From positions 1 to 51,729 of the forward strand of contig CALUTD010000015.1 in the NCBI GenBank assembly GCA_944323625.1: 51,729 bases of DNA. The letters are read 5' to 3'. Below the pieces are notes generated by a model. The model was not told the origin of the DNA. It was given only the letters and a program-made list of their open reading frames with translations, and did not search any database. Shown piece after piece: positions 8,623 to 51,425 of the stretch. The stretch's first letter is position 1. Each line of letters opens with the position of its first letter. A program made the position numbers and the translations under genes. The DNA is from Candidatus Gastranaerophilales bacterium (lineage in GTDB: Bacteria; Cyanobacteriota; Vampirovibrionia; Gastranaerophilales; Gastranaerophilaceae).

Positions 8623-8651
8623 TTGCAAAAGCATATTAATATTGCTATAAT
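8623..8651 (+). promoter_or_regulatory. Promoter of poly-G prepilin-like gene 1
   Basis: TTGCAA (8623-8628), exactly 17 bases, then TATAAT (8646-8651): the best sigma-70-type match noted in this part of the window. The start codon is at 8687 behind GAAGGAG (8672-8678). A good promoter and ribosome site argue that the gene is alive despite its reading-frame break. Confidence 0.7.
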
Positions 8652-8686
8652 ATAAAGAAAAAATCACAAATGAAGGAGATGTAAAT

Positions 8687-9381
8687 ATGTATATCAATAA
8701 TAAAACCGCTACGGGGGGGGGGTATTTAAGGAATTAAAAACGAATATTTTTTGTTCTTTCACCCTATCTGAAGTTTTAATTACTTTAGTTATTATTGGTG
8801 TAGTTTCTGCAATAACAATTCCTATAGTTATAGCAAATATCCAAAAAAAGGAAAATGTTGAAAAATTAAAAAAAGCAGATTCCGTTTTAAGGCAATCAAT
8901 ATTAAAAATAGCTATAAAAGAAGGTGCTCCTATAGGGGATTTCAGCTTTATGCAAAATGATGATTTTTTTAATAGTTTTATTAAAGAAGTTGATACTGTT
9001 AAAGTTTGCAAGGGAAATGTTTTAGGTTGTTTTACAAATAATTCAATAAAACTGTTAAATGGAAAGAATTATGGAAAATATAACAGAAGTAATTCATTAA
9101 TAACAAATGATGGTATAGCTTATGGATGGGATAGTAGATATTGTATTGGCAAAGGTATTACATTAGAAGATCAAGAAAATTGTATAGGAAGATTTATTAT
9201 TGATATAAACGGAGAAAGAAGTCCTAATCAGTTTGGAATAGATGTTTTCTTTTTTACTGTAGTTGATAAAAAAGGAATTGTACCTGCAGGAAGCGGTAGT
9301 AATTCTAGTGACTGTAACAGAACGAGTGATGGTATTATGTGTGCTGCTAAGGTTTTGCAAGAAGGTAGAATATCATATTAA
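8687..9381 (+). CDS. Prepilin-like protein with G10 tract, out of frame as assembled (copy 1)
   Basis: From the ATG at 8687 the frame reads MYINNKTATGGG, crosses ten Gs (8713-8722) and stops at 8735-8737. One base out of phase, the frame continues from the tract to 9381 and encodes FTLSEVLITLVIIGVVSA, a type IV prepilin methylation motif and membrane helix, followed by a soluble domain ending IDINGERSPNQFG and CAAKVLQEGRISY. A tract of 8 or 11 Gs would join leader and body (231 residues with 11). Residue -1 of the motif is Ser rather than the usual Gly. Promoter and ribosome site are intact. Two paralogues (14596-15298, 50666-51425) share the leader, tract and body. Alternatives are transcript slippage or an assembly error in the tract. 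Confidence 0.8.
8713..8722 (+). repeat. Homopolymer G10 in prepilin-like gene 1
   Basis: Ten consecutive Gs between the leader codons and the prepilin body. The frame is open through the body at 8 or 11 Gs and closed at 9 or 10. Confidence 0.9.
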
Positions 9382-14595: not shown

Positions 14596-15298
14596 TTAAT
14601 ATTTCATTTCCCAGTTTGATTCCATAATTCTTGCTGCACAACCTCTTCCATCTGCATTTGAAGGAAGCGGCTTTGAGTCAACACCGCAAAAAATTTCATT
14701 TGTTCTCCAGTAAATATGAGAAGGTGCTTTTGAATCTCCATATTGGGGGTTGAGTCGTCCGTTTTTTATTTCAAACAGAAATAAATCTCTGCCGAGAATA
14801 TTTTTGTTGTTATTATCGTTAACATCTACCAGCACATGCCCGTCTGCTCCCAATTCTACCGTATAACCACTATTTGTAATGAATAAAACATTTTTAGAAC
14901 TATAAGTAAAACAGGTTAAAGTACACCATGAATTTCCGTTCAAATATTTAAAATAAAGTGAATTATTTGCTTTATATTGAGGGTTAACACCAAAATATTT
15001 TAAAACAAAATCTGTTAATTCTGTCTCAAGGTCATTATTATTACCTGAATCTGATATAGAATACACTTCACCTGAATCAACAGAATAACGCTCAAGGACT
15101 TGAGAAAACTCTGAATAAAATTTTTTTAATCTTTGAACATAAAAAACTTTTTTCATATTAAAACTTATAACAGGGATTGTTATTGCTGAAATTATTCCTA
15201 TAACAACTAAAGTGATAAGTATTTCACTTAAGGTAAATAAAGGTTTGTTTTTAAGGTGTAAATTACCCCCCCCCGTAACGTAAATTTGATTTAATCAT
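14596..15298 (-). CDS. Prepilin-like protein with G9 tract, out of frame as assembled (copy 2)
   Basis: On the minus strand the ATG at 15298 opens MIKSNLRYGGG and meets TAA straight after nine Gs (15274-15266). In another phase the sequence after the tract reads GNLHLKNKPLFTLSEILI, then a long hydrophobic helix (TLVVIGIISAITIPVIS) and an open frame to 14596. The body ends with LGRDLFLFEIKNG and GRGCAARIMESNWEMKY, matching the other copies. Eight or eleven Gs would fuse leader and body (234 residues with 11). A ribosome site (AAAGGAGAG) precedes the leader. In this copy the first in-frame ATG after the tract (15156) lies past the helix, so starting there would lose the pilin signal. Residue -1 is Leu, not Gly. 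Confidence 0.8.
15266..15274 (-). repeat. Homopolymer G9 (C9 on the plus strand) in prepilin-like gene 2
   Basis: Nine Gs on the coding strand directly after the codon TAC of the leader. Open at 8 or 11, closed at 9. Confidence 0.9.
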
Positions 15299-50665: not shown

Positions 50666-51425
50666 TTAAAGTCTTTTTTTATAATTGCTGGTAAATTCCC
50701 ATCCGTCACTAACAAGAACATAAGCACATGCCCAAGCAGGATCGGGGTCATGCCAGGGATAACTTTGTGCACAGCCTTCTATATACTGTTCTTTTGTATA
50801 GTAAGAATTAATTCCAAACTTTTGAACTTTAATTCCTTTTTCTGTATATGAATCTATAACCTCTTGCGTAGGAAAAGCAAACGTAAAAATATCTCTTCCT
50901 GCTTCATTTGGGCCTTCTTCTCCGTTTATATCTATTACAACACCAGATATACCTTCAATAAACGAAAGTATACTTCCATCATTTAAATATACACAATGCT
51001 TCATCCAATCTATAGGTCCCAAAAAGTATTCATCTTCTTGCCCTTGATTGTGAAATGAATATAGACATCTATGATCTATTTTAGAATAACTCAAATATTT
51101 ACTTAAATATTCATTAAAAAATTCTTCATAAGTATCATTTCCATATATTCTATATTCCCATTGAGGAGAAGGAACACCATGGTCTATTTCTGATAATCTT
51201 ACTGCGTTTGAGAAAGTCGAATAAAACTTTTTTAGTTTTGCGACAGTTTCAGTTTTTTTGTGGTTTGCCATAATTACAGGCACGGTCACAGCTGCAATGA
51301 TACCTATGACAACAAGAGTAATTAATACTTCTGCTAAAGTGAATGAAAAGTCTTTTTCAGAAAAATTATTTTTAAAACCTGACATTAATCTACCCCCCCC
51401 CGTAGCGGTTATTTGATTTATTCAT
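50666..51425 (-). CDS. Prepilin-like protein with G9 tract, out of frame as assembled (copy 3)
   Basis: On the minus strand ATG 51425 (behind AAAAGGAGAT) opens MNKSNNRYGGG and hits TAG immediately after nine Gs (51401-51393). In the body frame the sequence reads RLMSGFKNNFSEKDFS, then FTLAEVLITLVVIGIIAAVT, a type IV prepilin motif and helix. The soluble part has CVYLNDGSILSF, DINGEEGPNEAGRDIFTF and CAYVLVSDGWEF. With 8 or 11 Gs the leader joins the body (253 residues with 11). Unlike copies 1 and 2, an in-frame ATG at 51385, seven bases after the tract and before the helix, could allow initiation without the leader. Residue -1 is Ser. Confidence 0.85.
51393..51401 (-). repeat. Homopolymer G9 (C9 on the plus strand) in prepilin-like gene 3
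   Basis: Nine Gs on the coding strand, directly after the leader codon TAC. Open at 8 or 11, closed at 9. Confidence 0.9.

Follow-up and report, generated by a model that had tools for sequence, protein, structure and literature searches.

The window analysed here, 51,729 nucleotides (nt) of contig CALUTD010000015.1 (GenBank assembly GCA_944323625.1) from Candidatus Gastranaerophilales bacterium, contains three prepilin-like genes in which a homopolymeric G tract separates a short leader from the prepilin body. They belong to a genome-wide set that probably represents a large pilin repertoire subject to slipped-strand phase variation, most of it in the OFF state. The homopolymers occur far beyond chance and are placed where their length sets reading frame or expression. 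Judged from the sequences, the set appears to be a genuine contingency system that spans the genome, known in kind but new for this lineage, and unusual in its scale, in the placement of the tract in prepilin leaders, in its two architectures and in its bias towards OFF as the default.

Only three runs of more than five G or C occur in the window, a G10 and two C9 (Table 1). G9 was matched four times, whereas 100 dinucleotide shuffles averaged 0.04 matches and never gave four; the original prediction had likewise placed these runs beyond chance. The layout at each tract is a Shine-Dalgarno site, an ATG leader of eight codons, the tract, and a prepilin body in another frame. The leaders MYINNKTA(T), MIKSNLRY and MNKSNNRY join their bodies at a tract length of 8 or 11 only; the observed lengths are 10, 9 and 9, and all three copies are OFF, exactly as the coordinates and phase arithmetic of the original prediction had it. 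The bodies lack start codons of their own. The good promoter and ribosome site claimed for copy 1 were both found, the former as a good sigma-70-like site, and paralogous leaders are also preceded by similar AT-rich -10 elements. All three bodies, with FTLxE and a hydrophobic helix, pass the cut-off of TIGR02532 (NCBIfam, prepilin-type N-terminal domain), and their PF07963 scores lie slightly under the family cut-off. A structure model has a helix at 19-71 followed by strands (mean predicted local distance difference test score 54, low confidence), and a PDB search with it gave no significant match. An Rfam search of the window returned one tRNA and nothing else. In an orthologue comparison across 38 congeners the copy 1 prepilin was not syntenic, the conserved element there being the upstream gene only.

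The genome of the window (G000) comprises 1,986,668 bases in 37 contigs, of which the stretches surrounding tracts and prepilins were read. It holds 121 tracts of at least eight G and 116 matches to the prepilin motif N_methyl. The three copies first noticed are indeed present in the window, as part of a genome set of roughly 80 or more. The lengths of 100 tracts read were 9 (53 tracts), 10 (40), 11 (6) and 8 (1). On contigs 1-18, 64 of the 90 N_methyl matches have an upstream tract on the same strand, 6 have one on the opposite strand (poly-C in the sense direction) and the other 20 lack one; of 98 tracts, 29 are distant from prepilins. A G11 tract (L018, G000:C2:82317-85325, tract at 1502) adjoins the 5' arm of an intergenic terminator-like inverted repeat (AAACTGCC...GGCAGTTT). 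A prepilin peptidase (PF01478, above cut-off) is encoded at G000:C6:6183-6650.

Two architectures were recognized. In type A (57 loci in G000) the tract lies inside the leader of the gene, with the leader running into the tract and the body frame open up to it; the typical sequence is AAGGAGATAAAATTATG-(8 codons)-YAC-G9/10-TAGAAC. The spacer from the tract to F(T)LxE contains no ATG, GTG or TTG in 47 of the 57 loci, and the two other frames of the same spacers are open in 16/57 and 3/57 only. Because the body frame is open, start codons are missing and the other frames are mostly closed, translation must enter through the leader. In the typical leader, stops in the other frames rule out alternative starts that would place n=9 in frame. 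The OFF-phase bodies are long and intact, nearly all being open over more than 200 amino acids (aa), and the ratio of nonsynonymous to synonymous substitution rates (dN/dS) is 0.25 for the sole usable pair of OFF bodies (L108/L113) and lies between 0.09 and 0.34 in other close pairs, whatever their type. Two prepilin loci (L075 and L076, at G000:C6:32336 and C6:39448) have nearly identical sequences behind the tract and different leaders, which suggests a duplication or conversion whose breakpoint lies close to the tract.

Type B is represented by about 25 loci in G000. Promoter, leader and tract are as in type A, and the prepilin has an ATG of its own (MKKIKSFTLAEV) about 160 nt downstream. 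Between the two lies a hairpin, mostly of 11-17 pairs and followed by T-rich sequence, with a median z of -4.2 in G000 and compensatory changes in 5 of 11 pairs. When n=2 mod 3, the leader is joined to a frame with a median of 22 open codons, which extends into, up to or beyond the hairpin; in the two remaining phases TAAATTAA right behind the tract closes the frame after about 0 and 1 codons. All 25 type B loci (L069 assigned by eye) have their long post-tract frame in the phase joined at n=2 mod 3, so that the leader frame reaches a terminator-like hairpin at certain tract lengths only, the arrangement expected of an attenuator. In G008, of the same genus, leader, leftover base count, open frame and hairpin all differ, and the long frame is again joined at n=2 mod 3. 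G054 has a comparable small open reading frame, in which one phase stops directly behind the tract and the n=2 mod 3 phase has 52-162 open codons where a stop was found. The peptides of the type B mini-frames resemble the type A stretch from tract to FTLxE; on this likeness, type A may derive from type B by deletion of what lies between. At L113 (G000:C17:1-3520, tract at 914) the type B leader has ATC for ATG and is otherwise nearly identical to the copy at L137.

Each tract would serve as a slipped-strand contingency switch within the part of a prepilin-like gene that encodes the cleavable leader. The ribosome would start at the leader ATG. At type A loci the prepilin body would be read only at the right tract length modulo 3; at type B loci the right length would bring the ribosome into or against the terminator-like hairpin, and transcription would then extend to the prepilin gene and its separate start codon. 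A single base lost or gained in replication would turn genes ON or OFF individually and, if the products are assembled into pili, would give the cell a changing pilin surface.

Tracts of the same kind lie within surface-sugar genes of G000, in mixed phases. The tract is in frame in a UDP-sugar dehydrogenase and in FdtA (split at profile 69/76), one base too long in a DegT aminotransferase and a hexapeptide transferase, and two too long, hence out of frame, in a GT2-GT2 glycosyltransferase gene with poly-C9 between its two domains (L095, G000:C10:25374-27374). A surface-polysaccharide cluster at G000:C4:4849-8736 (L063-L065) carries three tracts in 4 kb, one per gene and differing in phase. Since recoding within ordinary sugar enzymes is unlikely, homopolymer phase variation is most probably general in G000.

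Genomes of the family differ in tract number, from none to over 110, and those of the genus from none to 121; certain congeners carry just 0-3 tracts versus 121 in the genome of the window, which points to gain and loss of the system within one genus. The design recurs in relatives with different leaders, and with poly-C or G11-14 tracts. G008 has poly-C9 behind MENRHQI-type leaders; in G049 MKKDSVSICA-type leaders precede G11-14, and the spacers, which derive from repeats, remain open; G043 has MKNLLTRL-type leaders with spacers of 131-623 nt that are stop-free in 7 of 7. The type A spacers of G049 (e.g. L302 and L307) include interspersed repeats, translated as the HAELVSAS...RSRNKFGMT type, in frame within the prepilin leader. 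One locus of the same design was found in the metagenome-assembled genome 'Cyanobacteria bacterium SIG32' (Cyanobacteriota/Melainabacteria group), the exception in a pattern scan of genome contigs that otherwise gave mostly chance matches; it fits the suggestion of a gut melainabacterium made from the window. The prepilin design was not seen among the loci read in two tract-rich genomes of other families (G092 and G097). The anatomy of contingency loci in prepilin-like genes that are OFF here, as originally proposed, is strongly supported by the paralogues, the relatives, the poly-C versions and the mid-gene tracts of sugar genes; the genome-wide scale and the second, attenuator-like architecture had been missed.

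The need of a type A locus was defined as the remainder, modulo 3, of the tract length at which leader and body share one frame. Of 134 such loci, drawn from four genomes, the tract is in frame in 19, exceeds the joining length by one base (ON+1) in 93 and exceeds it by two in 22. The lability of the tracts is argued from locus pairs of the same genome with a similarity of at least 90% downstream of the tract, of which 11 of 25 differ in length by one base. In Campylobacter jejuni tracts of G8-G9 gain bases and those of G10-G11 lose bases (PMC8224891); 52% of its tracts are 9G and 30% are 10G (PMC6321876), which the shares in G000 (53% and 40%) resemble. As the tracts centre on 9-10, as in C. 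jejuni, while ON requires 8 or 11, the usual state would be OFF.

Several observations weigh against phase variation. Length change between cells is deduced indirectly, from one genome per species. The leader-typed poly-C tracts of G008 have a length of exactly 9 in 13 of 13. In-frame loci are fewer than one third (19/134, p=4e-7, a nominal value as the loci are related). The modal length in G049 tracks the frame class, being 13 for need 0, 11 for need 1 and 12 for need 2 (permutation p<5e-5); the effect in G000 is weaker (p=0.01). Because lengths follow the frame class in this way, selection appears to act on the joined frame, with ON+1 as the favoured state, and neutral drift alone does not predict the ON+1 excess together with the link between length and frame in G049. 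The type B prepilins may have a promoter of their own, as a conserved TATATAAT-like element lies between tract and prepilin, and this would weaken the attenuator reading. Loss of MutS was rejected as the origin of the tracts: mutS1, the only such gene examined, is intact in G000 and in most tract-rich relatives, and a general repair defect is therefore not behind them.

The ON+1 loci are read here as recently ON with one base gained since. The same excess is predicted by programmed recoding, in which the length is fixed at one above the in-frame value and a low, constant amount of prepilin is made through RNA polymerase slippage (one base lost), an alternative already named in the original prediction, or +1 ribosome slippage on GGG or CCC. 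Dozens of pilins would then be expressed by lengths tuned for slippage on G or C, on top of occasional switching at the DNA level. This is considered unlikely, though it accounts for n=ON+1 at 93 of the 134 loci with poly-G and poly-C alike, for the dependence of length on frame class in G049 and G000, and for the stop codon that n=9 sets directly behind GGG in G000. That stop context is missing from the poly-C of G008 and from G043 and G049; the 19 in-frame loci require no shift and 22 require the opposite one; near-identical paralogues lie one base apart; and the mid-gene tracts of sugar enzymes occur in all three phases. Insertion-biased slippage from 8 up to 9 also fits the +1 excess in G000 and G008, and much of that excess could derive from mutational equilibrium.

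It is very improbable that the assemblies have added one base to tracts that are really in frame. Homopolymers are error-prone, and tracts lie close to the ends of many contigs in G008, G043, G049 and G054. The lengths, however, come from independent assemblies, involve both bases and several values, and depend on the frame class. A systematic extra base at 8-mers is, to our knowledge, no known error of short reads, which counts against such an artefact. The contig ends, many of them within about 200 nt of a tract, lie mostly in repeats behind the tract, which also explain them. There is scarcely a better case for poly-G as a length-tuned RNA element, such as the target of a C-rich small RNA like RepG in Helicobacter, with the frame incidental: type B and intergenic tracts do lie outside long genes, but poly-C versions occur in G008 and three times in G000, and the frame relation of leader and body is kept in every architecture. 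Decay of the OFF copies behind dead leaders is hardly credible, as the one decayed type A copy (L060, G000:C3:65286-67286, tract at 1002), with ACG for ATG and a TAG between tract and FTLSE, stands against nearly uniformly open bodies, stop-free spacers and the dN/dS of the OFF pair.

Table 1. Features of the three prepilin-like loci in the window, with window positions.
Feature	Position	Strand	Remarks
Promoter-like site, copy 1	8623..8651	+	TTGCAA, 17 nt, TATAAT, extended TG; consensus match only
Ribosome-binding site, copy 1	8673..8678	+	AAGGAG
Leader, copy 1	8687..8712	+	MYINNKTA + 2 nt
Poly-G tract, copy 1	8713..8722	+	10 G; ON at 8 or 11 (offset +2)
Prepilin body, copy 1	8725..9381	+	218 aa; no ATG/GTG/TTG from tract to FTLSE
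Leader, copy 2	15275..15298	-	MIKSNLRY
Poly-G tract, copy 2	15266..15274	-	9 G; ON at 8 or 11 (offset +1)
Prepilin body, copy 2	14596..15264	-	222 aa
Leader, copy 3	51402..51425	-	MNKSNNRY
Poly-G tract, copy 3	51393..51401	-	9 G; ON at 8 or 11 (offset +1)
Prepilin body, copy 3	50666..51391	-	241 aa; TIGR02532; PF20318 DUF6613 barely above cut-off

A limited literature search found no paper linking phase variation with Gastranaerophilales or Melainabacteria, which does not prove that none exists; a melainabacterium from termites is reported to encode type IV pilus genes (PMC5877343). If phase variation is the correct explanation, the repertoire would be among the largest of a single family on record, in an uncultured gut lineage, and would explain the presence of about a hundred prepilin-like genes per such genome. 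Most of these genes would be missed or mis-started by routine gene callers, and pilin switching would be measurable directly from tract lengths in faecal metagenome reads. Attenuation under the control of homopolymers at about 25 loci of a single genome would make a recurrent design out of a regulatory device known from one instance.

Phase-variable type IV pilus genes are known from Neisseria, namely pilC, with poly-G, and pilE. They share with the loci described here a frame switch and a G tract close to the 5' end of the gene; pilC comprises one or two adhesin genes, compared with dozens of pilin-like subunits here. In the tlpB leader of Helicobacter pylori poly-G is the target of the small RNA RepG, and the length of poly-G in a leader is again the common element, whereas the frame relations and poly-C versions here point to the reading frame. 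The phasome of C. jejuni is alike in its tracts dominated by G9-G10, its frame switch, its surface-related genes including sugar enzymes and its close length spectrum (PMC6321876, PMC8224891). It comprises 18-39 phase-variable genes per genome (81 in one isolate) versus the 121 tracts of G000, which belongs to an unrelated phylum, has MutS, and carries the tracts mostly in one gene family, the prepilins, and in their leaders. Type B is most like Pil1 of Streptococcus gallolyticus, in which slippage at a GCAGA repeat lengthens a leader peptide and the ribosome then blocks terminator formation (PMC3894217). Both have a slippage repeat in a leader frame whose longer version reaches a terminator hairpin upstream of the pilus gene, and in both the default state is OFF or low. 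The repeat is GCAGA in Pil1 and poly-G here, the product a Gram-positive pilus in the one and type IV-like prepilins in the other, and a single proven attenuator stands beside about 25 loci in one genome whose anatomy suggests anti-termination.
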